Origin: Armatimonadota bacterium
Lineage (GTDB): Bacteria; Sysuimicrobiota; Sysuimicrobiia; Sysuimicrobiales; Sysuimicrobiaceae
Direction of reading: 5' to 3'
Assembly (NCBI GenBank): GCA_025059775.1
Contig: JANXCW010000007.1
Span: 1 to 64,000, forward strand
DNA: 64,000 nucleotides
Below, in pieces: positions 29,914-55,152 of this stretch. Position 1 is the stretch's first letter. Every line of letters begins with the position of its first letter. The position numbers and the translations under genes were made by a program. The notes under the pieces are model-generated. The model saw only the letters and a program-made list of their open reading frames with translations. It did no database searches and had not been told where the DNA came from.

Positions 29914-32025
29914 ATGGAGTTCTGGACCTACTACCGGATCCTGCGCCGACGGCGGTGGCTGCTCGTGGGCCTTACCCTCAGCGTAGCCCTGGTCGCGGTG
30001 CTCCTGGAACGGCCGAGAGCCGGGGAGTTCGAGGCCACCGCCACCCTCACCACGGCCCCTCCCGAGGATCAGCGGGTCTCGGACTTCGTGGCGGGCACCC
30101 GCCGGGACCGCAGCGCGGAGCAGCAGCGGGCCCTGGCGGTCGACCTCCTGCGCAGCCTCACGGTGGCGGAGCGGGTCATCCGGAGCCTCGGCCTCTCCCT
30201 GACCCCCGTGCAGCTCGTGGGCCGGATCCGGGTGCAGCGGGATCCCGGAAGCGACCTCATCCGGGTCACCGCCACCGGGAGCACGGAGCAGGAGGCGGTG
30301 CGGCTGGCAAACGCGGTGGCGGAGGTGGCCTCCGCCTTCCACCGGGAGATCAACCGGCGGGGGGTGACCCTGGCGCGGGAGTTCGTGGAGAAGCTCGTGG
30401 CGGACATGGGCGCTGGCCTCCGGCAGGCGGAGGAGGAACTGTGGCGGTTCCGCAATCTCCGTCAGCTGTACACCCGAGCGCCCTCCCGCATCAACGCCAT
30501 GGGCACCGTGGAGGGCGAGATCACCCGGATTGACCTAGCCCTTCGGGAACTCGAGACGGAGCTCGCCATGGTGCGGGAGAGGATCCAGCAGCACCTCGCG
30601 AGCAGGCCCCAAAGTCCTCCGCAGGCACCCGCGGTTCCCTTCCGAGCCACGGGGACCGTGATGCTGGACGGGAGCCGCCTCGCCATTCTGCAGTCCGCGG
30701 AGCGCACCTACTTCGCCCGGGTGGGCGACGTGATCGAAGGGTTCCGGGTGACCGCGGTGGAGGAGGACGCGGTGGAGGTCCGGCAGGGCGCCCTCCAGCA
30801 CCGGTTCGCCATAGACCCCGCTGCCCCGCTTCCCCAGGTATCGCCCGGTCCGCAGGCCGCTCCCCAGACCCCGCAGCCCCAGGGGCCTGCCCAGGACCCG
30901 GAGTACGCGCGACTGCTCCAGAGCCACATGAGCCTGGAGGCCCGGCGGCTCGTGCTCCTGGCGCGGAAGGAAGCCCTGCGGCAGCTGAGCCGGGCTATCC
31001 GGCAGGAGTTGCCCACCCTTTCCCGCTACGAGCTGGAGGAGGCCCGGCTGGAGCGCAACGTCCAAATCCTCCAGCAGCAGTACACCAGCCTCCAGCAGCG
31101 GCTCATGGACATCCGGGTGCGGGAGCAGGAGTTCCAGACCATCGGCACCCTCACGGTGGTGGACCTGGCCCGCATGGCCCGCCGCACCTCCCCCCTTAGC
31201 AACCGACCCATGCGGGGGATCGCGGGAGCCCTGCTGGGACTGGTGGGCGGGGTGGGCCTCGTGCTCTTCGCGGAATACACCGACAACCGCCTCAAGACCC
31301 CCGAGCAGGCGGAACGACTGCTTGGGGTCCCGGCCCTAGGGGCCATCCCCCGGCACAACCCGCCCTTTGACGAGGGCTACCGCATGCTGCGGGCGAGCCT
31401 GTTCAGCTCCAACGGCGCGGGTCCCCCCAAGATCCTCGCCGTGACCAGCACCAAGCCTCGGGAGGGCACCTCCACGGTGGTCCTGAACCTGGCACGGGCC
31501 TGCGCGGACATGGGGGATCGCACGGTGGTGGTAGATGCCCAACTGCGGCGGCCTGCACTGCACCGATTGCTGAGGGCGCAAAACGGATGGGGGCTGGCGG
31601 AGGTGCTCTCGGGATCCGCGTGCGTGGAGGAGGTTCTGGTGCAGCTCGAGCCCAACCTGTGGCTTTTGCCTGCGGGTTCCGGAGTGCCCGATCCCGGCAA
31701 GCTCCTAAACCCGCGGCAGGTAGAACCCCTCCTGCGACAGCTGGGAGGTCGGGCGGACGTGGTGCTGGTGGACGTCGCCTCGGCCGGCGCCTTCGCGGAC
31801 GCCTATGTCCTCGGACCCCTGTGCGACGGAGTGCTGCTGGTGGTGGAGGCGGGACGTCCGCCGCGAGGGATTGAGGAGCTGGTGCGGGTGCAGCTCCAAC
31901 GGGCCGGGGCGAAGGTGGTGGGCGTGGTGGTGAACAAGGCGAGTCCCGAGCACGTGGACACGTACTTCTACCACCACCAGTTCTTTCAGGTTCCCAGGAA
32001 CGGGAGGTTTTTGCGCAAGGCCTAG
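29914..32025 (+). CDS. Wzz/BY-kinase-like chain-length protein with PilP/GspC-like insert and degenerate P-loop
   Basis: This 703-residue inner-membrane protein has a Wzz-type first helix (about 17-33), a long coiled-coil periplasmic region and a second helix (about 435-455). A C-terminal MinD-like tyrosine-kinase domain (about 480-700) follows. Within the periplasmic part, residues about 246-300 (GTVMLDGSRLAILQSAERTY, then VGDVIEGFRVTAVEEDAVEV) resemble the beta domain of PilP/GspC secretin-contact proteins, followed by a Pro/Gln linker. The nucleotide site is degenerate: KPREGTST at 514-521 puts Thr519 where Walker A Lys belongs, and Walker A' reads DAQLR at 541-545. The tail lacks a tyrosine cluster. 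It probably controls polysaccharide length or export without normal kinase activity. Confidence 0.85.
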   Translation: MEFWTYYRILRRRRWLLVGLTLSVALVAVLLERPRAGEFEATATLTTAPPEDQRVSDFVAGTRRDRSAEQQRALAVDLLRSLTVAERVIRSLGLSLTPVQLVGRIRVQRDPGSDLIRVTATGSTEQEAVRLANAVAEVASAFHREINRRGVTLAREFVEKLVADMGAGLRQAEEELWRFRNLRQLYTRAPSRINAMGTVEGEITRIDLALRELETELAMVRERIQQHLASRPQSPPQAPAVPFRATGTVMLDGSRLAILQSAERTYFARVGDVIEGFRVTAVEEDAVEVRQGALQHRFAIDPAAPLPQVSPGPQAAPQTPQPQGPAQDPEYARLLQSHMSLEARRLVLLARKEALRQLSRAIRQELPTLSRYELEEARLERNVQILQQQYTSLQQRLMDIRVREQEFQTIGTLTVVDLARMARRTSPLSNRPMRGIAGALLGLVGGVGLVLFAEYTDNRLKTPEQAERLLGVPALGAIPRHNPPFDEGYRMLRASLFSSNGAGPPKILAVTSTKPREGTSTVVLNLARACADMGDRTVVVDAQLRRPALHRLLRAQNGWGLAEVLSGSACVEEVLVQLEPNLWLLPAGSGVPDPGKLLNPRQVEPLLRQLGGRADVVLVDVASAGAFADAYVLGPLCDGVLLVVEAGRPPRGIEELVRVQLQRAGAKVVGVVVNKASPEHVDTYFYHHQFFQVPRNGRFLRKA

Positions 32026-32043: not shown

Positions 32044-33366
32044 ATGAAGGTGGCGGTCTCGCAGGGGGAGTTGGAGAGCCGCATCAGGAGCCGCCGCGCC
32101 CGGGTGGGCGTGGTGGGCCTGGGATACGTGGGGCTGCCGCTGGCGGTGGCGGTGGCGGAGGCAGGGTTCCCTGTGGTGGGCATGGACGTGGACGAGGCTC
32201 GGGTGGAAAGCATCCGCTCGGGACGTTCCTACATCGACGATGTGGACGCCTGCCAGCTCACGCCCCTGGTGCGATCCGGCCGGCTCACCGTCACCACCCG
32301 GTACGAGGAGCTCGCGGAAGCGGAGGTTCTTCTCATCTGTGTCCCCACGCCCCTCACCCGCAGCAAGGAACCGGACCTCAGCTACGTGTACCGAGCCGCG
32401 GAGGGGATCAGCCGGGTGCTGCGGCCCGGTCGCCTGGTGATCCTGGAGAGCACCACGTATCCGGGGACCACGGAGGAAGTGCTGCGGCCGCTGCTGGAGC
32501 GCTCCGGCCTGCGGGCGGGGGTGGACTTCTACCTGGCCTTCAGTCCGGAGCGCATCGATCCGGGAAACCGTCGGTACAGCCTCCGGGAGGTGCCTAAGGT
32601 GGTGGGAGGATGCACCGAGCGCTGCACGGAGGCGGCCTGCGCTTTCTACGCCCAGTTCATCGAGCGCGTCGTCCCCGTAAGCAGCCCTACGGTGGCAGAG
32701 ATGGTCAAAGTGTACGAGAACGTCTTCCGCAACGTGAACATCGCCCTCGTGAACGAGCTCACGCTCCTGTGCGACCGCATGGGGCTCGATGTCTGGGAGA
32801 TCATCGAAGCCGCGGCCACCAAGCCCTACGGGTTCATGCCCTTCTACCCCGGGCCGGGGGTAGGTGGGCACTGCATCCCCATCGATCCTTACTACCTCGC
32901 GGCGAAGGCGCGGGAGTACGACTTCCACGTCCGGTTCATCGAACTGGCGGCCGCGGTGAACGACAGTATGCCCTACTACGTGCTCTCGAAGGCCACGACC
33001 GCCCTCGGGATGCAGGGGAAGACGCTCCAGGGGGCCAGGACCCTGGTCCTGGGGGTTGCGTACAAGCGGGATGTCTCGGACGCGCGGGAATCCCCCGCCC
33101 TCAAGATCATGGAGCTGCTGGAGAAGCGGGGAGCGGTGGTGCGCTACCACGATCCCCACGTCCCGCAGGTGCGGCTTCCGAACCCCGGTGAGGATCTCGC
33201 CTCTGTTCCCCTCACGGACGAGGTGCTGGCGTGGGCGGACTGCGTCATCATCGCCACGGACCACACGGGGGTGGATTACCGCAAGGTGGTGGAGCGGGCA
33301 CGGCTGGTGATCGACACCCGCAACGTCCTGCGGGACTTCCGGGCGCCTCACGTGGTGCGATTATGA
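32044..33366 (+). CDS. UDP-N-acetylglucosamine 6-dehydrogenase-like nucleotide-sugar dehydrogenase
   Basis: This 440-residue NAD-dependent enzyme belongs to the UDP-glucose/GDP-mannose dehydrogenase superfamily. It has VGVVGLGYVGLPLAVAVAEAG near the N-terminus and catalytic Cys277 in PGPGVGGHCIPIDP. The GGHCIPIDP form, with YLAAKAREY next, is typical of the WbpA/WecC/TuaD-like branch that makes UDP-N-acetyl-uronic acids. The C-terminal domain (VLGVAYKRDVSDARESPALK) is complete. It is the second gene of the polysaccharide run and supplies an acidic amino-sugar precursor. The exact hexosamine is not determinable. Confidence 0.87.
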   Translation: MKVAVSQGELESRIRSRRARVGVVGLGYVGLPLAVAVAEAGFPVVGMDVDEARVESIRSGRSYIDDVDACQLTPLVRSGRLTVTTRYEELAEAEVLLICVPTPLTRSKEPDLSYVYRAAEGISRVLRPGRLVILESTTYPGTTEEVLRPLLERSGLRAGVDFYLAFSPERIDPGNRRYSLREVPKVVGGCTERCTEAACAFYAQFIERVVPVSSPTVAEMVKVYENVFRNVNIALVNELTLLCDRMGLDVWEIIEAAATKPYGFMPFYPGPGVGGHCIPIDPYYLAAKAREYDFHVRFIELAAAVNDSMPYYVLSKATTALGMQGKTLQGARTLVLGVAYKRDVSDARESPALKIMELLEKRGAVVRYHDPHVPQVRLPNPGEDLASVPLTDEVLAWADCVIIATDHTGVDYRKVVERARLVIDTRNVLRDFRAPHVVRL

Positions 33367-34622: not shown

Positions 34623-35956
34623 TGCCGGAGATGAGCCCGCAACTTCTGGGGATCGTCTTCGCGGGGATGTACACCGTCCTCGCGGTCCTCAACCCCCGCG
34701 GTGCCCTCTTCTGGATCCCGCCCGCTATGGCCTTGGGGCCCGAGCTGCCCGTGGGCTCCATCTCCGTGCGGCCCGAGGACCTCATGATGGTGGCCCTGGT
34801 CCTGGGTTGGGCCATCCGGCGGGCCGGTGAGGGGCGGACCGGAACCCCGCTGGATGCGCCGCTCGTGCTGTACGTGCTGGCCGGTACGGCGGCCACCCTC
34901 TGGGGGGCGGCCATCGGGACCGCGAACCTGTGGAGCACCCATCCCTGGACCGCCTCCGGCTTCCACGCCCTGAAGCGGCTCGAGCTGGTGCTGCTGTTCT
35001 TCGTGATCACGGACATCCTGCGAACCCTGGACGATGCCCGCAAGATGACCTACGTCTTCATGGCATCTCTTGTTGCCCTGAACCTCTATGCGCTTTTGCG
35101 GTTCCACGAGACCGGACACATGGCCCTGGGTCCGGAAGGAAGTCCGGTCCACGAACCGGGGCTTGCGGCGATGCTGAACGTCGGGCTTGCGCTCGGGTTC
35201 CTGGAGGCCTCGCGGCGGTTTGCAACCTCCGCCCTCTTCGGAGGTCTTCTGCTGGGTTCTTTGTACGTCCTGCCCTTCAGCCTGGGCCGCAACTTCCTGG
35301 TCTCTACGCTGGCCATGTTGCTTCTGGTTGGGCTCTCCCGCAAGCGCAGCCTCCTGCTGCTGTTGCCCGTGGGATGGTTCCTGGTACCAGTGCTGTTTCC
35401 CGAGCACGTGGCGGCCCGGGTGCTGAGCCTGCGGGAGGCGTTTGCGGACGTCTCATACAGCGAGGCGTACGGCTCGGGCATCAACCTCCCTCAGCGGTTC
35501 CAACCCGGCCTCCACTACACCGCATTGGCCCTTCCGCGATCTCCGATCTTCGGCTGGGGGCTTGCGAGCGTATCGCTGGGGAGCGTGGACAACGAGTACG
35601 CCCTACAACTGGTCACCACCGGCCTGTTGGGGTTTTCGATCTTCCTGTGGTTGGGGGTGACTCTGGTACGCACCGTCCGGAAGACCCACCGAGCCGCGCG
35701 GGCCTCGGGCTCTCCGGCCCTTCCCCTGATCGCCGGGCTGCAGAACTGTCTCGTGGGCTACGGGCTGTATAGCCTCTTCAGCCCCTCCATCTCCGCGGCC
35801 CGGGCCGGGGCCTTCTTCTTCCTGCTGCTGGGGCTGGTGGCGGCGGTGCACCGGTGCGTGGTCCAGACGGTTCCCGAGCCGGAGCCCGTCCGGAGGGTGC
35901 TGGGCCGGCCGGAGTTCGATCCCAGGAGGCTAGAGGGCGGATGGAGATCTGCGTAG
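34622..35956 (+). CDS. O-antigen ligase/polymerase-like (Wzy/WaaL) membrane protein
   Basis: This 444-residue protein has about ten to twelve membrane helices and one large polar loop (about 240-310: VAARVLSLREAFADVSYSEA through FQPGLHYTALA). This matches the O-antigen ligase and polymerase topology. The SPIFGWGLASVSLGSVDNEYA segment just after the loop resembles the G-x-G...H/DN-Y motif of the Wzy_C/WaaL family. The ATG overlaps the preceding TGA. Since an ABC exporter of the Wzm/Wzt type is also encoded, this protein may be a ligase rather than a polymerase, which is inference. Confidence 0.75.
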   Translation: MPEMSPQLLGIVFAGMYTVLAVLNPRGALFWIPPAMALGPELPVGSISVRPEDLMMVALVLGWAIRRAGEGRTGTPLDAPLVLYVLAGTAATLWGAAIGTANLWSTHPWTASGFHALKRLELVLLFFVITDILRTLDDARKMTYVFMASLVALNLYALLRFHETGHMALGPEGSPVHEPGLAAMLNVGLALGFLEASRRFATSALFGGLLLGSLYVLPFSLGRNFLVSTLAMLLLVGLSRKRSLLLLLPVGWFLVPVLFPEHVAARVLSLREAFADVSYSEAYGSGINLPQRFQPGLHYTALALPRSPIFGWGLASVSLGSVDNEYALQLVTTGLLGFSIFLWLGVTLVRTVRKTHRAARASGSPALPLIAGLQNCLVGYGLYSLFSPSISAARAGAFFFLLLGLVAAVHRCVVQTVPEPEPVRRVLGRPEFDPRRLEGGWRSA

Positions 35957-37266
35957 TGGGAGCCGGTTACGTGGGCCTCACCCTGGCCGCGTGCCTGGTG
36001 CAGCTGGGACACCGGGTGACCTGCGCGGAGAAGGACCCGGAGCGGCTGGAAGCCCTTCGGAGGGGCAGCTGCCCGTTTTACGAGCCGAGCCTTGTGGAAC
36101 TCCTGCGGGAGGGGATGCGGAGCGGACAGCTGACGTTTACCGGAGAGCTGGGGCAGGCCGCAGAGGGCGCGGAGGTGGTGTTCTGTGCCGTGGGGACGCC
36201 TTCCGGCCGCAACGGGGAGGCGGATCTCTCAGCCTTGGAAGAGGTGGTGGAGGGCCTCAGCCGGTTGCGGGATGGGGCACGCATCGTGGCCATTAAGAGC
36301 ACGGTTCCCGTGGGCACCACGGATCGGGTGGCCCGCCGGCTCGGGCGGTGCGGTGAGTTCCACGTGGCGTGCAATCCGGAGTTCCTGCGGGAAGGCAGTG
36401 CGGTGGCGGACTTCTTCCACCCCCACCGGACGGTGATCGGGACCCGGAGCCCGTTCGCCGCGCGGCGGCTCCGGGAGCTCTTTGAGCCCCTGGGGGCGCC
36501 CGTGCTCCTGACGGACCCGCCGACGGCGGAGATGATCAAGTACGCTGCCAATGCGTTTTTGGCCACGAAGATCTCCTTCATCAACGAGATCGCTGCGTTG
36601 TGCGAGCACGTGGGTGCCGATCTGCGGGTGGTGACGGAGGGGCTGGGGCTGGATCCCCGCATCGGCCCGCACTACCTGCGGGCCGGGATCGGGTTCGGGG
36701 GATCGTGCCTGCCGAAGGACGTGCGGGCCTTGGCGGAGCTCGCCCGGGAGTACCTCCTGGAGCCGGTTCTGCTGGAGGCGGTGCTGCGGGTGAACGAGGG
36801 CCAGCGGCGACGGTTCGTGGATCGGGTGGAGGCCTTGCTTGGCGGGCTTAGCGGAAAGACCGTAGCGGTGCTGGGGCTTGCGTTTAAGGCGGGCACGGAC
36901 GACGTGCGGGAGTCCCCGGCGATCTCCATCGTGGAGCGGTTGATGGCCCGGGGGGCCGCGGTCCGAGTGCACGATCCCGTGGCCGCAGAGCGGGCCCGGC
37001 AGCGGATCCCGGCCCTGGCCTGCTTTCCGGACCCCTATGAGGCCGCGGGGGGCGCGGACGCGGTGCTGGTGCTCACGGACTGGCCGGAGTACCGGGACCT
37101 GGACTGGCAGGAGGTACGCCGCCGGGTGCGGCGGCCCCTCGTGGTGGACGGCCGGGGAATGGGGATCGCACGGCAGCTGGCCGCGGCGGGTTTCCGGGTG
37201 GTGGAGCCGGGCAGCCCCATCCGCCCCTCTCAGCCCGATCCGGAGGAGGTAGGATGGCTTACCTAG
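35941..37266 (+). CDS. ugd: UDP-glucose 6-dehydrogenase
   Basis: This 441-residue enzyme makes UDP-glucuronic acid from UDP-glucose with NAD. It starts MEICVVGAGYVGLTLAACLV and has the conserved IKSTVPVGTT and CNPEFLREGSAV. Catalytic Cys256 is in GIGFGGSCLPKDV, the form typical of UDP-glucose dehydrogenases. The C-terminal LGLAFKAGTDDVRESPA is intact. It overlaps the upstream gene by 16 bases and the downstream epimerase by 13. It is the second nucleotide-sugar dehydrogenase of the locus and of a different branch from the one at 32.0 kb, implying two acidic sugars. Confidence 0.9.
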   Translation: MEICVVGAGYVGLTLAACLVQLGHRVTCAEKDPERLEALRRGSCPFYEPSLVELLREGMRSGQLTFTGELGQAAEGAEVVFCAVGTPSGRNGEADLSALEEVVEGLSRLRDGARIVAIKSTVPVGTTDRVARRLGRCGEFHVACNPEFLREGSAVADFFHPHRTVIGTRSPFAARRLRELFEPLGAPVLLTDPPTAEMIKYAANAFLATKISFINEIAALCEHVGADLRVVTEGLGLDPRIGPHYLRAGIGFGGSCLPKDVRALAELAREYLLEPVLLEAVLRVNEGQRRRFVDRVEALLGGLSGKTVAVLGLAFKAGTDDVRESPAISIVERLMARGAAVRVHDPVAAERARQRIPALACFPDPYEAAGGADAVLVLTDWPEYRDLDWQEVRRRVRRPLVVDGRGMGIARQLAAAGFRVVEPGSPIRPSQPDPEEVGWLT

Positions 37267-38282
37267 TCACGGGCGGAGCGGGATTCATCGGGTCCCACGT
37301 GGTGGAGGCCCTCGTCCGGGCGGGAGAGAGCGTCCGGGTGCTGGACGATCTCAGCACGGGGAGCCTGCGGAACCTGGAGGAGGCCTTGGGGCTTGCGCCC
37401 GGATCCCTGCGGCCGCCGGCTCCTGGCGAGCTGGTGGCGGTCACCGACCGGTGCGAGCTCCTGGTGGGAGACATCCGCGATCCCGAGGCTCTGCGGCGGG
37501 CCTGCGCGGGGGTGGAGGTGGTGATCCACGAGGCGGCCCTGCGGGCGGTGCCGCGGTCCGTGGACGATCCCCTTTCGACCCACGAGGTGAACGTCACGGG
37601 CACGCTGCGCCTGCTCCTCGCGGCCCGGGAAGCCGGGGTGCGGCGGGTGGTGTTCGCCTCCAGCTCCTCCGTCTACGGGGCGTCTCTGGAGGTGCCCAAG
37701 GTGGAGACCATGACACCAGCTCCCATCTCCCCCTACGCGGTGAGCAAGCTCGCGGGCGAGCACTACTGCCGGGTGTTTTACGAGCTCTACGGAGTGGAGA
37801 CCGTGAGCCTCCGGTACTTCAACGTGTTCGGGCCCCGGCAGGACCCGGCTTCCCGCTACGCGGCGGTGATCCCCCGGTTCATCGCCGCGGCCGTGGAGGA
37901 TCGGCCTCTGGAAGTCCACGGCGACGGCGGACAGTCGAGGGACTTCACCTACATACGCAACGTGGTCCAGGCCACCCTGCTGGCCAGCACTGCCCCGCAT
38001 GCCGCCGGTCAGGTGCTCAACGTAGGGGCAGGCGAGACGTACTCCATCCTCCACCTCATCTCGGCCCTGGAGGAAATCTTCGGCCGTCGCCTCCCGGTCC
38101 GACACACCCCACCCCGGCCCGGGGATGTGCGCATCACCCTGGCGGATATCTCCCGGGCCCGCGCGGTGCTCGGCTACGAACCGGAGGTGAGCTTCCTCGA
38201 AGGGCTGCGAGAGACGGTGGCGGACTTCCAGGCCCGCCGCGCACGGGGAGCGGGCGCGGTTTCTGTTGCCCGGAGGGAATAG
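37254..38282 (+). CDS. UDP-sugar 4-epimerase-like extended SDR
   Basis: This 342-residue NAD-dependent epimerase has TGGAGFIGSHVVEALV at the N-terminus, catalytic SSSSVYG and SPYAVSKLAGE, and sugar-binding LRYFNVFGPRQDP. It resembles UDP-glucuronate or UDP-N-acetylglucosamine 4-epimerases (WbpP-like). Following a UDP-glucose dehydrogenase, conversion of UDP-GlcA to UDP-GalA is the simplest role. The end (ARGAGAVSVARRE) is short and basic. Confidence 0.88.
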   Translation: MAYLVTGGAGFIGSHVVEALVRAGESVRVLDDLSTGSLRNLEEALGLAPGSLRPPAPGELVAVTDRCELLVGDIRDPEALRRACAGVEVVIHEAALRAVPRSVDDPLSTHEVNVTGTLRLLLAAREAGVRRVVFASSSSVYGASLEVPKVETMTPAPISPYAVSKLAGEHYCRVFYELYGVETVSLRYFNVFGPRQDPASRYAAVIPRFIAAAVEDRPLEVHGDGGQSRDFTYIRNVVQATLLASTAPHAAGQVLNVGAGETYSILHLISALEEIFGRRLPVRHTPPRPGDVRITLADISRARAVLGYEPEVSFLEGLRETVADFQARRARGAGAVSVARRE

Positions 38283-38285
38283 GCC

Positions 38286-38807
38286 GTGCGCGCCTGGGAC
38301 CTGGACCTGCTCTTCTCGGCCTACCCCTACTTCATCTTCTTCCTGCTCCCCCACGTCGATCGGTACGTGGGGATGGATGTGGACGCCCGACGGCGTCCGG
38401 ACGTGGTCGGGTCCGCCCACCGCCTTCCGTTCCGCGACCGGGTCGCGGACACGGTCCTGTGTACGGAGGTCCTGGAGCACTGCTACGAGCCCCACGACTA
38501 CTTCCGGTTCACCCGCTACGGGCTTGCGCTGTTGCTGGACCGGGCGGGCCTGCGTGTCGTGCGGGCGGAGCGGATCGGCGGGGTGTTCGCGCTGTGCGGG
38601 GCCCGGCTCACGGAGGTCACTTGCAAGACGCTGGCCCGGGCCCTGAAGCTCCTGCCGCGGCCTCTGGCGCGTGCTGCGGTGATGGGCCTCTACCTGCTCA
38701 TGACCGCGGCATCCTTGGCCGCCTCCCGGCTGTTCGACTGGGTGGACCGGACCGACGCCATCGGCTGGATCGTGCTTGCGCAGCGGCCCGTGGAGGAAGC
38801 GGTATGA
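38286..38807 (+). CDS. truncated SAM methyltransferase-like protein
   Basis: This 173-residue product resembles class I methyltransferases found in surface sugar loci but lacks key parts. The normal glycine-rich SAM loop before the first acidic strand is missing; the protein starts close to YVGMDVDARRRPDVVGSAH. About 30-40 residues usually found between VLCTEVLEH and EPHDYFRFTRYG also appear to be absent. The C-terminal half is hydrophobic and could be a membrane anchor. GGAGGGA precedes GTG 38286. It may be a decaying enzyme or a non-catalytic partner; I give no function. Confidence 0.6.
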   Translation: MRAWDLDLLFSAYPYFIFFLLPHVDRYVGMDVDARRRPDVVGSAHRLPFRDRVADTVLCTEVLEHCYEPHDYFRFTRYGLALLLDRAGLRVVRAERIGGVFALCGARLTEVTCKTLARALKLLPRPLARAAVMGLYLLMTAASLAASRLFDWVDRTDAIGWIVLAQRPVEEAV

Positions 38808-40009
38808 GGATCTGCCTCGTGACCTCCAGTTTCCTGCCGCAGGTGGGTGGGGCGGAGATCGTGGTGCACCAGCTGGCCCTGGCCCTGGTGGAGCTGGGGC
38901 ACGCGGTCACGGTGCTCGCGCCCCGTTACAGCGCCCGGCTGCGGCGGGTTCTCCCCTACCGCCTGGAGACGTTCCTGCCCGGCACCCTCACCCTGCTGAA
39001 CCGCAACGACCGGTTGGGCGAAGCGTTCCTTCTGGGGACGCTTGCGCGGATGCGGGGGCGGTTCGACGTCTTGAACCTGCACTTCGCCCTGCCTCTCGGC
39101 CCCGCCTTCGTGCGCCACCGCTGGGTGGTGGGTGCCCCGCTCCTGTTGACCTTCCACGGGACGGACATCCAGACCGACCCCGCCATCGGGTACGGCCTGC
39201 GCCTGGACCCCCAACTCGACCGCAAAATCCGGCTCACCGCGAACGACGCAGACGGGCTTGTGGCCATCAGCCCCTCGGTGCGGGCGGCCATCGGCGAGAT
39301 GCTCGCCCCGCCCCGACCCGTCTTCGACATCCCCAACGGGGTGGACGTCCGGCGGCTCTCCCAGGAACGTCCCCGGGGCCGGTTCCGGGCCCGGCTCGGG
39401 ATCCCTCCCGAAGCTCCGCTCCTCCTCGCCGTGGGCCGCAACCACCCCAAGAAGGGATTCGACCTCCTGTTGGAGGCCGCGCGCTTGGTGGCCCAAGACG
39501 AGCCGCGGGTCCACTGTGCCGTCGTCGGCCGGGGGGTGACCCAGCTCCGTCCTCTCGCCGAGCGCCTTGGCCTCCGGGGTCAGGTGCACCTCGTAGAGGA
39601 GCTCAGCCCTCGGTTCGACGGCCGCCAGGTTCCCCTCTTCCCCCCCGAGGAGGTGGTAGACGCCTACCGGGACTGCGACGTGTACGTCTCTCCGTCCCGG
39701 ATGGAAGGCTCCTCCCTCGCAGTACTCGAGGCCCTGGCCGCGGGGTGCGCGGTGGTGGTCACGGACGCTCCCGGCAACCGGGACGCGGTGCGGGACGGCG
39801 AAAACGGCCTTTTGTGTCCGCCCGAAGACCCCAAGGCGCTGAGCCAACGGATCCTGCGGCTGTTGCGTGATCCTCGCCTCCGCACACGGCTCGGTGAGGC
39901 CGCTCGTGCCTCCGCCCTTGCTCTTGACTGGCAGAAGGTGGCCGCACGGTACGCCGACGCATACGCCGTGGTGGCGAGGGTGACCGACCGCGTGGAGGTG
40001 GCAACGTGA
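38804..40009 (+). CDS. family 4 glycosyltransferase
   Basis: This 401-residue GT-B enzyme starts MRICLVTSSFLPQVGGAEIV. The donor-binding domain has LLAVGRNHPKKGFDLLLEAA and the retaining-GT4 EX7E motif in SRMEGSSLAVLEALAAG. The short insertion RFDGRQVPLFPPEEV after VEELSP is unusual but tolerable. It would add a sugar to a growing glycan at the cytoplasmic face. Translation is coupled by ATGA to the gene before and after. Confidence 0.9.
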   Translation: MRICLVTSSFLPQVGGAEIVVHQLALALVELGHAVTVLAPRYSARLRRVLPYRLETFLPGTLTLLNRNDRLGEAFLLGTLARMRGRFDVLNLHFALPLGPAFVRHRWVVGAPLLLTFHGTDIQTDPAIGYGLRLDPQLDRKIRLTANDADGLVAISPSVRAAIGEMLAPPRPVFDIPNGVDVRRLSQERPRGRFRARLGIPPEAPLLLAVGRNHPKKGFDLLLEAARLVAQDEPRVHCAVVGRGVTQLRPLAERLGLRGQVHLVEELSPRFDGRQVPLFPPEEVVDAYRDCDVYVSPSRMEGSSLAVLEALAAGCAVVVTDAPGNRDAVRDGENGLLCPPEDPKALSQRILRLLRDPRLRTRLGEAARASALALDWQKVAARYADAYAVVARVTDRVEVAT

Positions 40010-41328
40010 GCGGGTGGATCGCGATCGGCAGACCTGAACTCGTAGATTCCCGAACCGTACGGGTTCGCATCGAGGCCTCCCCAGGGGTCGCCCGGTACTT
40101 CCGGGTCCACGGCTTCGAGGTCGCCTACAGTCAGCCCGTGGGCCATGCTCCGGCCTCCTTGCTGGTCCTTCCCGCCATCGCAAACGCCGCCCCCGTCTGC
40201 TGGGCCACGGGAGCGGACCTCCGCCTCGCATGCGTAGACGCCGCATTCCTCCAGGCTCTTGAGGACCTACGCGACAAGATCTCGGAGTTCTACCCCACCC
40301 TCCCCTGCACCACACGGGTGCTGGCGGAGGAGGTGGAGGGGAACCGGATCGGGGGGAACGAGGTGGGTCTGCTGTTCAGCGGGGGTGTGGACTCCACCGC
40401 TTCCCTGGTCCGCCATCGGCTGGAGAACCCGCACCTCGTCATGATCCACGGGGCCGATATCCCGCTGCGGGATCGAAGGCAGTGGGTCCGGGCTCTCGAG
40501 GCGAACCGGCGGCTCGCTGTGGCAGAAGGCTTGGTCCTGCACACCGTCCGGTCCAACTTCCGGGAAGTCCTGAACTCTGCGGAGCTGAACGCGGATTTCT
40601 CTCCGGCCCTACTGGGTCGCTCCTGGTGGGCCGGCATCCAGCATGGCCTTGCCCTCCTCGGCCTTCTGGCGCCGCTGTCGGCAGCCGCGGGGTGGAACCG
40701 GGTACTCATTGCGGCCACATACCCGCGCCACGTCCGTCGGCCGCACGGATCCCACCCCCAATTGGACTCCCGGGTCCGATGGGCGGATCTTGCGGTGACC
40801 CACGACTCGAACGATCTCTCCCGGTTCGAGAAGATCCGAGACCTCCTCATCCCTTACTACGGGTCCAGATCCGTGAAGCCCACCCTCCGGATCTGCCTCG
40901 CACCTCCCCCGTCTGGCCTCAACTGCGGCCGCTGCGAGAAGTGCGTGCGAACCATTGTGGCCCTGCTACTTGCGGGAGCGGATCCCCGGGCTTACGGCTT
41001 GCCCTACCATCCGAGCGCACTCCTGCTCGCGCAGGACCGGCTGTTGCAGGGGTACTACAAGCTGACCGCCGGGCACATCCCCCACTGGCAGGAGCTGCAG
41101 CGGCGAATACCGGAGACTCCGCCCTGGCCCCAACCCGCAGCGTTCTTCGCATGGCTTCGGGACGCGGACTTCGCTGACCTCCTTAGAATCTCGGAGCAGC
41201 GTCAAAAGAAGGAGCGCGAAGCCCTCGAAAGGTCGCCGTGCATGCGGTGGGCACACGCACTCAGAGCCTCTGTCCGCAAAACCCTTCGGGGAGCCGCCTG
41301 GAGGCTCTCGCTCCGAGGCTGGACATGA
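40006..41328 (+). CDS. QueC-like PP-loop ATPase with Cys4 site, function unknown
   Basis: This 440-residue protein has an N-terminal domain of about 115 residues that I do not recognise. A PP-loop domain follows, with SGGVDS at residues 125-130 in VGLLFSGGVDSTASLVRHR. A four-cysteine cluster (Cys297, 307, 310, 313; NCGRCEKC) closes it, spaced much like the zinc site of QueC (7-cyano-7-deazaguanine synthase). Such enzymes adenylate a carboxylate or carbonyl and pass it to nitrogen or sulfur. No other queuosine genes are present. Its place between glycosyltransferases, coupled by ATGA, suggests modification of a sugar or acid in the polymer, for example amide formation on a uronic acid; that is speculation. 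Confidence 0.75.
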   Translation: MSGWIAIGRPELVDSRTVRVRIEASPGVARYFRVHGFEVAYSQPVGHAPASLLVLPAIANAAPVCWATGADLRLACVDAAFLQALEDLRDKISEFYPTLPCTTRVLAEEVEGNRIGGNEVGLLFSGGVDSTASLVRHRLENPHLVMIHGADIPLRDRRQWVRALEANRRLAVAEGLVLHTVRSNFREVLNSAELNADFSPALLGRSWWAGIQHGLALLGLLAPLSAAAGWNRVLIAATYPRHVRRPHGSHPQLDSRVRWADLAVTHDSNDLSRFEKIRDLLIPYYGSRSVKPTLRICLAPPPSGLNCGRCEKCVRTIVALLLAGADPRAYGLPYHPSALLLAQDRLLQGYYKLTAGHIPHWQELQRRIPETPPWPQPAAFFAWLRDADFADLLRISEQRQKKEREALERSPCMRWAHALRASVRKTLRGAAWRLSLRGWT

Positions 41329-42437
41329 GGATCCACCACTTCTATCCCCGCACGTCCAACCTCGGCGACCGTTTCGTGGCTCTGGGCATCGAGCGCCTGT
41401 TCCGGTCCTTGGTTCCCGAGGCCGTGTCCGTCTCCTTTGATGTGAACGACCGGGGATCGGATCCGGAGGCGTACGGGATCACCCTTCGCACGGTGGAACG
41501 GGCCAACCGGGAGGCGGACCTCGTGGTGGTGGGGGGCTCCAACCTCTACGAGGCAGTTCCGGGGAGGAATCGATGGGGTGTCCACCTGGACCCCTCAGCC
41601 CTCCCCCGGCTCCGGGTACCGATGCTCCTCGTTGGCATCGGCACGGGATCGGATCCCGGTGCGCGCAGGCCGACCCCGCCCACTCCCCAGGTGGCGGAGG
41701 AGATCCGGCTGCTGAACCGGTACGCGGTGTTTTCGGGCGTGCGGGATGTGGTGACCCTGGAGTGGCTGCAAGCCCTGGGCGTCTCCACGGCGCAGCTTCT
41801 GGGGGATCCCGCCACCTTTCTCTTCTGCCTTCCGGTCCGGGAGCCCAGGCAGGTGCGTCGGGTTGCCCTGGTACCCCCGCCTCGGCGTCCCTACTGGGAG
41901 AGATGGAGGCGCATCCGGTTCTGGGATATGCGGGGGCCGAACTTGTGGCGCGCCATGGCGGACCTCGTCCGAGAGCTCGTGGCTTCAGGCCTGGAGGTCT
42001 GGGTGATGTGCAACGACCCCCGGGACGTGTCTCTCGTACGAGACCTGTTCGCATACGGCCGGCTGGCTATCGAGCTCGCTTCCTCCGCGGAGTCGTACCT
42101 GGCGCTCCTCCAGGAGATGGACGCGGTGGTGACAGCCCGCCTCCATACCGCGGTGGTGGCGCTCTCCCTCGGTATCCCGTTCGTACTCGTGGATCTCGAT
42201 CAGCGCACCCACGGATTCGTACGCACCTTTGGCCTCGGCGAGTGGACGGTTCCCTATGCCTGGGCAGGGATGACCTCGCACCTCCGGCGCCGGGTGCTGC
42301 ATCTGGTCTCCGGGAAGACGGACTGGAGGCCGTTCGTGGCGAAGCGGGACGAGATGCGCGATCGCGCCCTGGCGATGCTGCGGGGGGCCATTGCCGTGGG
42401 TCCCGCCGCGGAACCGCCCGCGGTCCGCATCCGATGA
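41325..42437 (+). CDS. polysaccharide pyruvyl transferase-like protein
   Basis: This 370-residue protein fits the CsaB/WcaK polysaccharide pyruvyl transferase family. It begins with IHHFYPRTSNLGDRFVALGIE and a glycine-rich VVVGGSNLYE, and ends with TARLHTAVVALSLGIPFVLV, the conserved C-terminal lobe. These enzymes move pyruvate from PEP to a sugar as a ketal, adding negative charge. ATG 41325 overlaps the preceding stop. Some family members instead act as glycosyltransferases, so the exact role is open. Confidence 0.82.
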   Translation: MRIHHFYPRTSNLGDRFVALGIERLFRSLVPEAVSVSFDVNDRGSDPEAYGITLRTVERANREADLVVVGGSNLYEAVPGRNRWGVHLDPSALPRLRVPMLLVGIGTGSDPGARRPTPPTPQVAEEIRLLNRYAVFSGVRDVVTLEWLQALGVSTAQLLGDPATFLFCLPVREPRQVRRVALVPPPRRPYWERWRRIRFWDMRGPNLWRAMADLVRELVASGLEVWVMCNDPRDVSLVRDLFAYGRLAIELASSAESYLALLQEMDAVVTARLHTAVVALSLGIPFVLVDLDQRTHGFVRTFGLGEWTVPYAWAGMTSHLRRRVLHLVSGKTDWRPFVAKRDEMRDRALAMLRGAIAVGPAAEPPAVRIR

Positions 42438-42448
42438 GAGGCAAGAAC

Positions 42449-43666
42449 ATGCGGATCTGCCTCCTCTGCCAGGAGTACCCGCCTGAGGTCAAGGGTGGCG
42501 GGATCGGCACGTACACGCACACCCTGGCTCGGGCGCTTGCACGCACCGGGTGCCGGGTACACGTGGTGGCCCGGGCCGTGGGTGTGCCGCGCAGCGAGCT
42601 GGAGGAAGGCGTGGTGGTGCACCGGGTGGCGTCGCCCCCGGACTTGCTCCGCAAAGCCGCGTGGCCATTCACGGGCCCGCAGAGCTTCCTCGACGCTTAC
42701 GCGCACTCCCGGGCCGCGGCCAGAAAGGTCCTGGAACTCTTCTGGGCCGAAGGCCTGGACGTGGTGCAGTCGCCCGAGCACGGAGCCGAAGGTCTGGCCG
42801 CGTTGCGGAGCTTGCCGCAGCTCCCGCACGTGGTGCGGCTCCACACCCCCCTCTTCCTGGTGCACGAGGCCGTGGGCCGCACGCTCAGCCCCGGCGCTTG
42901 GGTGGTGCACTTCATGGAGCGGGCGGCGGTGCGACGCGCCACCCTCAACACCTGCGCCAGCCGGGCCCTGGCCCTCGCGGTGGCGCGGCGGTTCGGGATC
43001 CGGCCCGGCCGCATCCGGGTGGTGCCCAACGCGGTGGACCCTGAACTGTTCTCGCCCGCTGCCTCCCCCCCTTCGGGCGAACCCTCGGTTCTGTACGTGG
43101 GCAAGCTCGCGCCCCTCAAGGGGGTCCTGGTCCTGGCAGAGGCCGTCCCTCGGGTGCTGGCGCGGGTTCCGGAAGCCCGGTTTGTGTGCGTGGGCTCCGA
43201 CCACACCACCCCGAGCGGTTCTACCCGGGAGTGGATGCGGCAGGTGCTGAGGAAAGCGGGAGCCGAGGGCGCTGTGCGGTTTCTGGACCCAGTCCCGCGG
43301 GCTGAGCTTGTGGACCTATACCGGCGCGCCCACGTGGTGGTGCTGCCCACCTACTGGGACAACTTCCCCAACACGGTGCTGGAGGCCCTGAGCTGCGGGG
43401 TTCCCGTGGTGGCCAGTGCCGCCGGCGGAATCCCGGAGATCGTCACCCACGGGCAGGAGGGGCTCCTCGTCCCGCCCGGGGATCCCGAGCGACTCGCGGA
43501 GTCGGTGGCCGCGCTCCTTCTCGACCCCGGCCGCCGTGCCGACATGGGGCAGGCGGCCCGGGACCGGGTGGTGCGGGAGTACACTCCGCACCGCGTGGCG
43601 CAGCGGACGCTCGAGATCTATGAGGAGGCCATGCGCCGCCACGCGGAGCTCCGGAGGAGCGCATGA
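42449..43666 (+). CDS. family 4 glycosyltransferase
   Basis: This enzyme (405 residues) is a GT-B retaining transferase. It begins MRICLLCQEYPPEVKGGGIG, the typical acceptor-side glycine loop, and contains VLYVGKLAPLKGVLVLAEAV and the EX7E region PTYWDNFPNTVLEALSCGVP. An AGAGGC site supports ATG 42449; ATG 42434 with a 4-base overlap is an alternative. It sits just before the ABC exporter genes. Confidence 0.9.
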   Translation: MRICLLCQEYPPEVKGGGIGTYTHTLARALARTGCRVHVVARAVGVPRSELEEGVVVHRVASPPDLLRKAAWPFTGPQSFLDAYAHSRAAARKVLELFWAEGLDVVQSPEHGAEGLAALRSLPQLPHVVRLHTPLFLVHEAVGRTLSPGAWVVHFMERAAVRRATLNTCASRALALAVARRFGIRPGRIRVVPNAVDPELFSPAASPPSGEPSVLYVGKLAPLKGVLVLAEAVPRVLARVPEARFVCVGSDHTTPSGSTREWMRQVLRKAGAEGAVRFLDPVPRAELVDLYRRAHVVVLPTYWDNFPNTVLEALSCGVPVVASAAGGIPEIVTHGQEGLLVPPGDPERLAESVAALLLDPGRRADMGQAARDRVVREYTPHRVAQRTLEIYEEAMRRHAELRRSA

Positions 43667-44508
43667 TCGGCACCCGTCCCCTACCGGAAGTGGTGATCCG
43701 GGCGGAGGATCCACCGCCAGGGTTGCTAGCGGGCCTGCGGGAGCTGGTGGCGCACCGGGAGTTGCTGTGGGCCCTCGGGATGCGGGAAGTACGGGTGCGC
43801 TACAAGCAGTCCCTGCTGGGGGTGGCGTGGGCCGCCATCCAGCCGCTTTTCATGATGTTCATCTTCACCGTGGTGTTTGGCCGGTTCGCACGGCTCCCGA
43901 GTGAGGGAGTCCCCTATCCCGTCTTCTCCTACACGGCCCTGCTGCCATGGAACTTCTTCTCCTCCGCGGTCTCCTCGGCCATCACCAGCGTGGCCGCCGG
44001 CGGCGCCCTCATCAAGAAGGTGTACTTCCCCCGGGCGGTGCTGCCCCTGGCGAGCATGGTCACCAGTGCCGTGGACTTCCTCGTCTCCGCGGGGGTGTTC
44101 GGGCTGCTGCTCGCCTTCTACGGGGTGTCCGTGAGCTGGCACGCCCTCTACCTGGTCCCCCTCCTCGTGCTCCAACTGACCTTCATGGTGGGGCTGTCGC
44201 TGCTGTTGGGTGCCTTCAACGCCTACTACCGGGACGTGCGCTACGTCCTGCCCATCGCCCTGCAGGTGTGGCTGTACGCCACGCCCGTGGTTTGGTCCAT
44301 GGCCATGGTGCCGGAACGCTACCGCGTGTGGTACGCGCTCCTGAATCCCATGGCTGCCGTCGTCGAGGGGTGGCGGGCCGCGGTGCTGCGGGCCTCGGCC
44401 CCCGATGGGCTGTTGGTGGCCGCCGCAGCCGCCACGGCCCTGGTCGCCCTCGTCGGAGGCTACCGGTACTTCCACTACGTGGAGCGCAACTTCGCGGACG
44501 TGATCTAG
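43663..44508 (+). CDS. wzm: polysaccharide ABC exporter permease (Wzm-like)
   Basis: This 281-residue protein has six membrane helices and the ABC2-type exporter layout. The N-terminal amphipathic RELLWALGMREVRVRYKQSLLG and WAAIQPLFMMFIFTVVFGRF are classic Wzm/TagG/KpsM features. It would form the channel that moves a lipid-linked glycan across the inner membrane, driven by the ATPase encoded 10 bases downstream. Start ATG overlaps the previous stop. Confidence 0.93.
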   Translation: MIGTRPLPEVVIRAEDPPPGLLAGLRELVAHRELLWALGMREVRVRYKQSLLGVAWAAIQPLFMMFIFTVVFGRFARLPSEGVPYPVFSYTALLPWNFFSSAVSSAITSVAAGGALIKKVYFPRAVLPLASMVTSAVDFLVSAGVFGLLLAFYGVSVSWHALYLVPLLVLQLTFMVGLSLLLGAFNAYYRDVRYVLPIALQVWLYATPVVWSMAMVPERYRVWYALLNPMAAVVEGWRAAVLRASAPDGLLVAAAAATALVALVGGYRYFHYVERNFADVI

Positions 44509-44518
44509 GGGGTCGCGG

Positions 44519-46966
44519 GTGAGCTACGCGGTGCGCTTCGAACGGGTTTCCAAGAGCTACCGGAAAGGGTCGGCCCGGTACCGGTCCCTCCGGGACGACC
44601 TCACGGCGCTGCTCACCCCCTGGTCGTGGGCGCGCAGGCGCGAGGAGTTCTGGGCCCTGCGGGACGTGAGCTTCGAGGTCCCCCGAGGGGGGGCCCTGGG
44701 GATCATCGGCCCCAACGGGAGCGGCAAGAGCACCACCCTGAAGCTCATCGCCCGCATCACCCACCCCACCGAGGGGGTCATCCGGATCCGGGGCCGGGTG
44801 GGCGCCCTCATCGAGGTGGGCGCCGGCATCCACCCGGAGCTCACGGGCCGGGAGAACGTCTTCGTGTACGGGTCCATCCTGGGCCTCCGGGCCCGGGAGA
44901 TCCGCCGCCGGTTTGACGAGATCGTGGCGTTCGCGGAGATCGGGCCCTTCGTGGACACGCCCGTCAAGCACTACTCCTCCGGGATGCAGGTACGGCTGGG
45001 ATTTGCCGTGGCCGCCCACATGGACGTGGACGTGCTGCTGGTGGACGAGGTGCTGGCCGTGGGAGATGCGGCGTTCCAGAGCAAGTGCCTGCGCCGCATC
45101 CGGGAGCTGCGGGACCAGGGCGTCACCATCCTGCTGGTGAGCCACCAGCTCGCGAACGTCCAGCGCATCTGCCCGGACGCCCTCCTCCTGGTCGGGGGCC
45201 GGATCGCGGCCCAGGGCCCGACCCCGGAGGTCATCGCCGCCTACTACCGCTACCTGGACGAAGCAGGCGCCTCGAGTCCGGACGCCGCCCTGCGTCCCGG
45301 AGTGCCGGCGCCACACAGGGACCACCCGGTGCAGATCACCGCGGTGCGCCTGATGGACCGTTCCGGACAGGAGCGGTCCGCGTTCCGGATGGGCGAGGAC
45401 CTGGTGGTCCGGGTGGAGTACGAGGCGCGGGAGCGCGTGGAGCGCCCACAGGTCTCCGTGAGCTTCAACAGCAGCGACTGGACGGTGTACACGGGCATGG
45501 ACACGAAAAACGAGGGGTTCAGTATCCCCGCCATGGAGGGTCGCGGGTGGGTAGATGTGGTGGTGCCGCAGCTGGGGCTTGGGCCGGGCCTGTACGAGGT
45601 GAATGTGGGGATCTGGGACGAGACCCTCACGGCCCCCTACGACTGGCGGTGGGGGATCCGCCGGTTCGTGGTGGACACCAACCGGGCCCTGTTCGCGGGC
45701 CGGTTCGTGCTCCCGCACACGTGGTCCTGGCAGGCCGCACCGGAACCCAAAGCCCCTGCGGCGACCACGGCCGCGCACGAACAGGGTCCCGCGGCCTTAG
45801 ACCGGTTCCAGCAGGCCCTGCTGGGCGCCCTGCACGCCTTCCTCAACGGTGAGTTCGTCGTGCCCTCAAGCCGCCGGAGGGAGCTGGCGCGGCCCGTGGA
45901 CCTCCGGGCCACCCGGGTGGCCTGGGATGTACTCCAGCAGCCGGTGGCAGCCCTCCGCCAACTCCAGGGAGCGCTGCCCGGCCGGGTTCGGGAGCTCGCG
46001 GAGGAAGGGGCGTCTGTGCGGTTTTTGCCCTTCGCGCGGGCGGCGGAGCTGCTCGCGGCGCTGTACCGGGAGCTCGACCGGCACCTCCGGGACGGTGCAG
46101 AGCCGGACCGGAAGGTGCGGGTGCTGCGGGCATTCGATCCTGCGACGTACCGGGAGCGGGGACTTGCGGCGGTGGTGCAGCTTGGGGAGTACGTGCGAGA
46201 AGAGCTCGCTCCTCACCTGCTTGGGTTTTACCTGCACGGAAGCCTCTCCACCCTGGACTACACCCCTTACTCGGACCTGGATGACCTCCTCGTGGTGCGG
46301 CGGGAAACGCTGCTGGATCCGGAGCGGCTTGCGGAGTGCGCGCGGCGCTGTGTGGAGGCCACGCGCTTTCTGTACGAGCACGACCCCCTGCAGCACCACG
46401 GCCACTTCGTCCTCACCGAGCTCGACCTCCACCGCTACCCGCCCGCTCATCTGCCAAGCGCGGTTTTGCCGTACACCACCGCGGTGGTAGGCCCCTCCGA
46501 GTTCCGGATCAGGGGCGAGGATGGAACGGAGGCCCGTAGGTGGCAGGCTGAGGAGATGGCAAGGCGCCTGGCGCGGCCCGGCCCTCCACCCCGCAACATG
46601 TGGGAGCTGAAGGACCTGTTGGCCCGGGTGATGCTGCTGCCGGCCCTGTACCTGGGAGCGTTGGGCGAGCCCTGCTACAAGAAGTTCGCGTTCGAGCGGG
46701 CTCGGCCCCACTTCGACGGAGCGTGGCGGGCGGTGGAGATCGCCACGGAGCTGCGGGCGCGGTGGTCCTACCGGCCGGGCCTGCGGGAGCACCTCCTGCG
46801 TGCGGTGGGTCTGGGGTACCTGCGGAACCCCGTCCTGTACCGGCGCCTCGTCGCCAGGCACGCACCACCGATCCCGCCCAAGCTAAACCGATACCTGGCC
46901 CTCACGGGCTTCTACGCAGAGGTGCGGCGGTTCGCCGCGCGGGCCCTGCAGCGCCTGGAGGGATAG
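44519..46966 (+). CDS. Wzt-like exporter ATPase fused to a nucleotidyltransferase domain
   Basis: This 815-residue protein joins two systems. Residues 1-255 are a Wzt ATPase: Walker A GPNGSGKS (64-71), signature YSSGMQVRL (152-160), Walker B LLVDEVLAVGD with Asp176-Glu177. Residues about 270-395 are a Wzt C-terminal beta-sandwich, which in relatives recognises the capped glycan. After an Ala/Pro linker (about 398-420), residues about 425-815 contain a polymerase-beta-like nucleotidyltransferase: GFYLHGS (Gly574, Ser575) and SDLDDLLV (Asp586, Asp588), followed by a helical C-terminal region. The metal-binding GS...DxD is intact. Reading frame is continuous and codon use uniform, so it looks genuine. 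It may couple terminal modification of the glycan to export. Confidence 0.88.
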   Translation: MSYAVRFERVSKSYRKGSARYRSLRDDLTALLTPWSWARRREEFWALRDVSFEVPRGGALGIIGPNGSGKSTTLKLIARITHPTEGVIRIRGRVGALIEVGAGIHPELTGRENVFVYGSILGLRAREIRRRFDEIVAFAEIGPFVDTPVKHYSSGMQVRLGFAVAAHMDVDVLLVDEVLAVGDAAFQSKCLRRIRELRDQGVTILLVSHQLANVQRICPDALLLVGGRIAAQGPTPEVIAAYYRYLDEAGASSPDAALRPGVPAPHRDHPVQITAVRLMDRSGQERSAFRMGEDLVVRVEYEARERVERPQVSVSFNSSDWTVYTGMDTKNEGFSIPAMEGRGWVDVVVPQLGLGPGLYEVNVGIWDETLTAPYDWRWGIRRFVVDTNRALFAGRFVLPHTWSWQAAPEPKAPAATTAAHEQGPAALDRFQQALLGALHAFLNGEFVVPSSRRRELARPVDLRATRVAWDVLQQPVAALRQLQGALPGRVRELAEEGASVRFLPFARAAELLAALYRELDRHLRDGAEPDRKVRVLRAFDPATYRERGLAAVVQLGEYVREELAPHLLGFYLHGSLSTLDYTPYSDLDDLLVVRRETLLDPERLAECARRCVEATRFLYEHDPLQHHGHFVLTELDLHRYPPAHLPSAVLPYTTAVVGPSEFRIRGEDGTEARRWQAEEMARRLARPGPPPRNMWELKDLLARVMLLPALYLGALGEPCYKKFAFERARPHFDGAWRAVEIATELRARWSYRPGLREHLLRAVGLGYLRNPVLYRRLVARHAPPIPPKLNRYLALTGFYAEVRRFAARALQRLEG

Positions 46967-54154: not shown

Positions 54155-55152
54155 AGCCCTTCTTCCTGGTCACCGTGGACACGGAAGGAGACAACCTGTG
54201 GGCGCGGCCCCGGGAGATCACGACCCGGAACGCGGAGTTCCTGCCCCGCTTCCAACAGCTGTGCGAGCGGCACGGGCTGCGGCCGACTTACCTGGTGACG
54301 TACGAGATGGCCCGCTCGCCTGCCTTCCGGGAGTTCGGGCAGGACCTCCTTCGCCGGCGTGCGGGAGAGATCGGAGCCCACCCGCACGCCTGGAACAACC
54401 CACCCCTCGTCCCTCTCACGTCCGACGACCTGCATTTCCAGCCGTACCTCATGGAGTACCCGGAGCCCGTGATGGCCCAGAAGCTGCGGGTGCTCACGGA
54501 ACTCCTGGGGGACACCTTCGGGGTACCCATGCGCAGCCACCGGGCCGGCCGGTGGGGCTTGAACGAAACCTACGCACGGCTGCTGGTCCAGCACGGCTAC
54601 CTCGTGGACTGCTCCGTGACCCCGCACCTGTCGTGGCGGGGCCACCGAGGGGCTCCCCACGGAGCCGGAGGCCCGGACTACCGCGGCTTCCCCGAGGACC
54701 CCTACTTCGTGGACCTCGAGGACATCTCCCGACCCGGAAGTTCGCCGCTGCTGGAGGTGCCGATGACCGTGGTCCCCTCCGGCCTCCCTTCCCTGGGGGT
54801 GTGGCTGCAGCTGGCAGATTCTGTTCCCCTCCTGCATCGGGCGCTGAACCGGTTTCTGCCGCCTGTGCACTGGCTGCGGCCGGACCGCCGCAACCGCGCC
54901 CACATGCTCCGCATCGTGCGCCGGGCGGCGACGGAACGTCGCGTGCACCTGGAGTTCATGGTCCACTCCTCGGAACTCATGCCGGGCGGAAGCCCCCTGT
55001 TTCCCACCCGTGACCACATCAAGCGGTTGTACGGGGACCTGGAGGCGTTGTTTGAGCTGGCTTCGCGTACGTGCACGCCCGCCACCCTCTCGGAGTTCTA
55101 CGAGCGGTACCGGACGGCCGCGCCGTCCGCGGTGCAGGAAGGAGCTCCATGA
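54151..55152 (+). CDS. NodB-like polysaccharide deacetylase
   Basis: This 333-residue protein has an N-terminal strand with catalytic Asp10 (FFLVTVDTEGDN), a metal-binding AHPHAW histidine pair, and MRSHRAGRWG. It therefore fits carbohydrate esterase family 4-like proteins. It has no signal peptide, so it may act in the cytoplasm on a lipid-linked or nucleotide-linked sugar. Coupled by ATGA on both sides. Together with the PIG-L protein it gives the locus two unrelated de-N-acetylases. Confidence 0.8.
   Translation: MKPFFLVTVDTEGDNLWARPREITTRNAEFLPRFQQLCERHGLRPTYLVTYEMARSPAFREFGQDLLRRRAGEIGAHPHAWNNPPLVPLTSDDLHFQPYLMEYPEPVMAQKLRVLTELLGDTFGVPMRSHRAGRWGLNETYARLLVQHGYLVDCSVTPHLSWRGHRGAPHGAGGPDYRGFPEDPYFVDLEDISRPGSSPLLEVPMTVVPSGLPSLGVWLQLADSVPLLHRALNRFLPPVHWLRPDRRNRAHMLRIVRRAATERRVHLEFMVHSSELMPGGSPLFPTRDHIKRLYGDLEALFELASRTCTPATLSEFYERYRTAAPSAVQEGAP

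Follow-up and report, generated by a model that had tools for sequence, protein, structure and literature searches.

A predicted QueC-fold PP-loop ATPase of an undescribed family, frequently encoded beside pyruvyl transferases, that probably modifies acidic surface sugars

What a PP-loop protein built on the plan of QueC does inside a glycan locus is the question raised by the gene at 40006-41328 of the window, that is, the whole stretch of 64,000 nucleotides analysed here. The features of this gene and its locus are as follows.

29914..32025, + strand: chain-length determinant / tyrosine autokinase (NCBIfam TIGR01007)
32044..33366, + strand: nucleotide-sugar dehydrogenase, UDP-HexNAc type (NCBIfam TIGR03026 and UDP-ManNAc dehydrogenase models)
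35941..37266, + strand: nucleotide-sugar dehydrogenase, UDP-glucose type (NCBIfam TuaD/AglM models)
37254..38282, + strand: SDR epimerase, nearest TviC, a UDP-GlcNAcA 4-epimerase (NCBIfam)
38804..40009, + strand: GT4 glycosyltransferase overlapping the PP-loop gene by GTGA (Pfam, sequence)
40006..41328, + strand: PP-loop ATPase with a predicted QueC fold, 440 aa from a GTG start, member of an unnamed family (open reading frame, homologue in the genus, family, fold)
40006..40353, + strand: its N-terminal domain, residues 1-116, modelled with an RNase H-like fold (model, Foldseek, conservation)
40378..40395, + strand: its PP-loop SGGVDS, residues 125-130 (translation, conservation)
40894..40944, + strand: its zinc-type cluster C297-x9-C307-x2-C310-x2-C313 (NCGRCEKC), invariant in 93/93 members
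41325..42437, + strand: polysaccharide pyruvyl transferase PF04230 with PEP residues R140, R272 and H274 (Pfam E 1e-21, alignment, own genome)
42422..43666, + strand: GT4 glycosyltransferase, start codon approximate (Pfam)
43663..46966, + strand: Wzm/Wzt-type ABC glycan exporter (ATPase by Pfam/NCBIfam, permease by position and sequence)

The 5' end of the PP-loop gene overlaps the 3' end of the GT4 gene in GTGA (40006-40009), and its 3' end overlaps the start of the PF04230 gene in ATGA (41325-41328), so that the ATGA coupling claimed in the preliminary description for both neighbours holds for the downstream transferase and not for the upstream one. The membership of the gene in a glycan locus, likewise described before, is borne out. 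The gene is present as a single copy in its own genome, and a 70% identical syntenic homologue in another genome of the genus again adjoins a PF04230 gene. Pfam, NCBIfam, PADLOC and the PDB sequences gave no match for the protein, the top NCBIfam score being asn_synth_AEB at chance level (E 0.099). Other proteins of the window were noted as side observations: the Wzt ATPase (44519-46966) is extended at its C-terminus by a region with a GS...DxD nucleotidyltransferase-like motif, an unusual fusion for a glycan exporter, which weakly matches Pfam Adenyl_cycl_N (E 0.003); the following gene (46967-48112) encodes 381 aa with no Pfam match and a similar GS...DxD-type motif; and an ATP-grasp domain is fused with a low-molecular-weight protein tyrosine phosphatase at 55149-56873.

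The SGGVDS motif and the C(x)9CxxCxxC cluster had both been read from the sequence beforehand, and they are found as described and conserved across 93 relatives. C297, N306, C307, C310 and C313 are invariant in 93/93 aligned members and G127, D129, G149, R273, K276 and K312 are nearly so; the invariance of the four cysteines and N306, together with the near invariance of G127 and D129, indicates that the two motifs are not there by chance. The AlphaFold2 model built on a 56-sequence alignment reached a mean pLDDT of 95.0 and a pTM of 0.91, and according to this model and the profile comparisons the protein is a predicted QueC-fold PP-loop ATPase, in keeping with the QueC plan proposed earlier. 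In hhalign, QueC ranked at the top of nine PP-loop sets with 96.8% over 207 columns, covering the whole QueC domain, whereas QatC was weaker (66-89%), LarE-like proteins reached 89-91% over the P-loop half only, ArgG 26-61%, and TilS, ThiI and GuaA 3-38%. An identity as TilS, ThiI, ArgG, GuaA or a LarE-like protein was thus rejected, as none of these profiles matches specifically outside the P-loop region, and the homology to an unrelated PP-loop protein such as TilS that had been named as a possible refutation was not found. The top PDB match of the model in Foldseek was QatC (425 columns, E 2.7e-5, prob 1.00, with a global TM of only 0.39), QueC 3bl5 was also among the top PDB fold matches (prob 0.98), and the best viral structure matches were QueC as well. 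The separate N-terminal domain noticed in the preliminary description proved to be a real module of about 110 residues common to the family; within the window's clade its D78 is invariant and its P56 almost invariant. Modelled alone (pLDDT 95.1), it shows a beta-beta-beta-alpha-beta-alpha-beta order and a weak RNase H-like resemblance (Foldseek E 1e-3, prob 0.98), and QatC is not among its best 50 Foldseek matches; the QatC-like overall fold is seen in the full-length match and not with this domain alone, so that the modelled domain may be related to the extension of QatC according to the first comparison, but the second did not confirm this. PDB sequence matches of the N-terminal profile were noise (E >= 0.35).

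The PP-loop protein belongs to an undescribed family that occurs in Bacteria and Archaea and forms two clades. A scan of genome contigs with the single sequence found no relative, but the alignment-based scan of genome contigs recovered at least 530, of which 80 were kept. In an unrooted tree from a quick search, the 93 family rows stand opposite QueC and QatC with a branch support of 99, and divide into clade A (65 rows, including the window) and clade B (28 rows) with a support of 96 each. Plasmid relatives, all annotated as hypothetical protein, were observed in haloarchaea, Priestia, Azospirillum, Nostoc, Gloeothece, Gemmobacter and Pseudobutyrivibrio; eight relatives lie on viral contigs, and none was found in phage records. 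In three sampled phyla, 2 to 9 genomes carry a family gene per sample of about 350 genomes, each sample including its own centre genome, picked for having the gene, which indicates that the gene is sporadic. The first 94 loci contain 106 family copies by the local profile, tandem pairs and triplets among them, and the Pfam model DUF6395 weakly matches six relatives. Differential arrangements were observed for individual loci: L057 (8648-12628) and L087 (7243-11047) each hold three tandem PP-loop copies with no PF04230 shown, and with a FemAB-like GNAT plus a PLP enzyme, or else a radical SAM protein, among their neighbours; L091 (5936-8479) holds a mixed tandem pair, one copy from clade A and the other from clade B, adjoining a GT2-PF04230 fusion; the relative in L103 (1174-2259) has an NCxxCEKC cluster and seemingly no P-loop, and is possibly an inactive or shortened copy; and in L020 (11282-14650), from Aquibacillus, the family member is immediately followed by an NRPS-like gene with condensation, adenylation, carrier and thioesterase domains.

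With QueC (PF06508) the family shares the Rossmann-type PP-loop core, SGGxDS and a C(x)8-9CxxCxxC cluster at the C-terminal end, the spacing in the window, C(x)9CxxCxxC, being longer by one than the C(x)8CxxCxxC of QueC; it differs in its N-terminal domain and C-terminal helices and in being a separate clade, below Pfam detection and in a glycan context. The PF06508 model gives no match to the window protein at E<=1 and weakly matches 7/56 relatives (best E 0.0014). None of YxQxHxxE, VPxRN and YPDC, the canonical substrate motifs of QueC (Libby et al., PMC13329287), is kept in the profile alignment of the family. The ATP site and the metal site are kept relative to QueC, whereas the substrate site differs. 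The own genome, 99% complete, contains no QueC, its sole PF06508 matches being ThiI and a LarE/NAD-synthase-like protein, and no QueD-family protein (PF01242). In agreement with the earlier remark, no deazaguanine gene was seen near the PP-loop gene. A strong separate QueC coexists with the family in 11/21 genomes carrying it, indicating that the family does not replace QueC. An identity as QueC was therefore rejected on the missing substrate motifs, the separate position in the tree and the own genome without QueC and QueD, and the earlier view that the protein is not a true QueC in function agrees with this: of the two findings named as refuting it, grouping with true QueC was checked in the unrooted tree, where the family stands apart (support 99), and queC-linked genes were looked for as QueD and QueC and not found. 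The PF06508 survey of Libby et al. is silent on polysaccharide and pyruvyl genes (PMC13329287).

QatC resembles the family in its length of about 440 aa, in a QueC core extended at both termini, and in that the nucleobase-binding residues of QueC are replaced in both (for QatC, PMC12424860). It differs in cysteine spacing, in the low global TM and in the weak profile match. The PADLOC QatC model does not match the window protein and weakly matches 3/56 relatives, and QatB and QatD are not among the neighbours in the window, where GT4 and PF04230 genes stand instead; qat operons look different. On the PADLOC result, the lack of QatB/QatD and the separate position in the unrooted tree, an identity as QatC was likewise rejected.

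The most constant companion of clade A was sought in the 30 loci of this clade that come from organisms other than haloarchaea and extend for 1.5 kb or more to either side of the gene; they are mostly best matches of the scan rather than a random sample and span many phyla. A PF04230 gene lies within 400 bp (adjacent) in 20/30, within 2 kb in 24/30 and in the locus in 28/30, the partners in L082 and L094, recognised by Pfam, adding one to the first count and two to the last, and a subset of the partners being Pfam-confirmed. In the same loci an adjacent GT4 was observed in 3/30, a GT2 in 4/30 and a flippase in 8/30; GT4 and GT2 are far commoner than PF04230, yet less often adjacent. Under random gene order 4.8 PF04230 adjacencies were expected against 19 observed in 27 loci, counted without the partners in L082 and L094, and 0 of 1e6 simulations reached 19. 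PF04230 genes are few per genome, just one to three in most of those searched. The linked transferases are spread over several distinct lineages of PF04230, with at least five label changes forced by well-supported branches, indicating that the partnership arose repeatedly. Pyruvyl transferases also lie near the family gene in plasmid records of Priestia, Azospirillum, Pseudobutyrivibrio, Gemmobacter and Gloeothece, and GT2-PF04230 fusions occur in the family loci L061, L073, L081 and L091. L092 (9980-12400) encodes a fusion of 807 aa in which the PP-loop protein is joined to a GT4 glycosyltransferase. The PEP-binding residues R148, R306 and H308 of CsaB have been mapped (PMC10435577), and R140, R272 and H274 of the window transferase correspond to them by motif and by CsaB-family alignment rows; the PEP-binding R and RxH are present in 8/8 aligned transferases, six of them linked, and RxH in most others. 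The own genome contains two PF04230 copies, the locus transferase and CsaB itself, and this separate CsaB indicates that the locus has a transferase dedicated to it.

Pyruvylation is a frequent and not a necessary companion of the family. PF04230 was found in 0/46 haloarchaeal loci and not in the haloarchaeal genome G045 searched whole, indicating that the family enzyme can work without it; the frequent haloarchaeal neighbours are a DUF6541-like membrane protein and a phosphodiesterase and, in some loci, an ATP-grasp protein. Clade B is weakly linked, with PF04230 in 4/17 loci, and among the 25 commonest families listed in a Pfam scan of 56 further neighbours PF04230 was absent, although a single match may lie below that cut.

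Computed here are the fold, the conserved ATP and metal sites, the standing of the family as one of its own, its setting in glycan loci and its recurrent pairing with pyruvyl transferases. QueC adenylates a carboxylate, which ammonia converts to an amide and then to a nitrile (PMC13329287 and established knowledge). From such an analogy we infer that the enzyme adenylates, that its product is an amide and which carboxylate it acts on, and tentatively favour an ATP-dependent ligase that activates a glycan carboxylate, most likely that of a pyruvate ketal, and gives an amide. ATP would be bound at SGGVDS as in QueC, the carboxylate of a sugar residue would be adenylated by the PP-loop enzyme, and ammonia or a small amine would attack the adenylate to form the amide. 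The target carboxylate would most likely sit on a pyruvate ketal installed from PEP by the adjacent PF04230 enzyme, so that the pair would take a neutral sugar to a ketal-acid and then to a ketal-acid amide. Amidation of the ketal is favoured because the ketal carboxylate is common to the unrelated partners and to most clade A loci, and because QueC-fold enzymes activate carboxylates. The main evidence against it is the absence of PF04230 from the 46 haloarchaeal loci; the weak linkage in clade B and the three-copy loci L057 and L087 also count against it, and adjacency alone is no proof of a common substrate. No ammonia-supplying glutaminase was noticed near the PP-loop gene.

The rival that survives best, though rather unlikely, is the amidation of a uronic acid residue to a hexuronamide, the idea of the preliminary description and a reaction presumably carried out by AsnB-type enzymes in other glycans. 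It draws on the two nucleotide-sugar dehydrogenases and the TviC-like epimerase of the window and on the b-Cool precedent of Bordetella, where uronate amides are the product of a UDP-GlcNAcA/GalNAcA locus that includes a putative asparagine synthase gene (PMC12407052). The predicted function of that asparagine-synthetase-type protein, BB0880, is similar, namely ATP-dependent amidation of glycan acids in a glycan locus, but it is of another PP-loop family, whose model the window protein matches at the chance level given above. Nucleotide-sugar dehydrogenase genes, moreover, are adjacent in 0/30 and present in 9/30 clade A loci, a count of the locus only as they may lie elsewhere in the genomes, against 28/30 for the pyruvyl transferase, and the two dehydrogenases are thus not supported as the functional clue. 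Of the amidation, nitrile or thio chemistry on a sugar acid first proposed, amide-type chemistry on an acid would still be the likeliest.

Coupling of an amino acid or peptide, instead of ammonia, to a glycan or lipid carboxylate as an amide is unlikely. Genes for ATP-grasp, FemAB-like GNAT, Mur ligase or NRPS proteins are found close to some of the relatives, and a protein N-terminus as target has been shown for Cap9 and proposed for QatC (PMC12424860), but not one of these neighbours accompanies the family throughout, and the window's clade shows no recurrent amine-donor gene. It is very unlikely that the enzyme converts a sugar N-acetyl to an acetamidino group in the manner of WbpG/PseA-type PP-loop enzymes: the WbpG-type N-acetyl sugar amidotransferases are also PP-loop proteins of glycan loci, placed in the QueC superfamily by a published survey (PMC13329287), but the reported cysteine pattern of the WbpG-type cluster, CxxC(x)6CxC, differs from that of the window protein, which matches no NCBIfam amidotransferase model, and no HisH/HisF-type partner was noticed. 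The attachment of a deazaguanine or another nucleobase to a partner, as by Cap9 and perhaps QatC, is highly improbable despite QatC being the solved structure nearest to the full-length protein, given the absence of QueC and QueD from the own genome, the missing QueC substrate motifs, the glycan rather than defence partners and the lack of a PADLOC match. The PP-loop superfamily holds many sulfurtransferases (TtuA, LarE, ThiI), but sulfur transfer to a sugar acid as a thiocarboxylate or thioamide, the thio chemistry mentioned earlier, is just as improbable, as the only conserved cysteines are the four of the zinc-type cluster and no carrier or desulfurase was noticed nearby. The probability left after the tentative ketal amide, the rather unlikely uronamide and the unlikely amino-acid amides falls to these other rivals and to unknown chemistry.

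Returning to the ketal amide, no description of an amidated pyruvate ketal was found among the open papers searched. Pyruvate ketals determine the charge of the surface and serve as anchors for S-layer proteins; it is possible, if doubtful, that this new and widespread PP-loop family makes an undescribed glycan modification, the pyruvate-ketal amide, that would cancel the negative charge of the pyruvyl group. QatC gains structurally similar enzymes outside phage defence. The repeated pairing of an unnamed family with unrelated pyruvyl transferases in bacteria and archaea points to a further pathway step, and the PP-loop enzyme probably modifies acidic surface sugars in a step not yet described.
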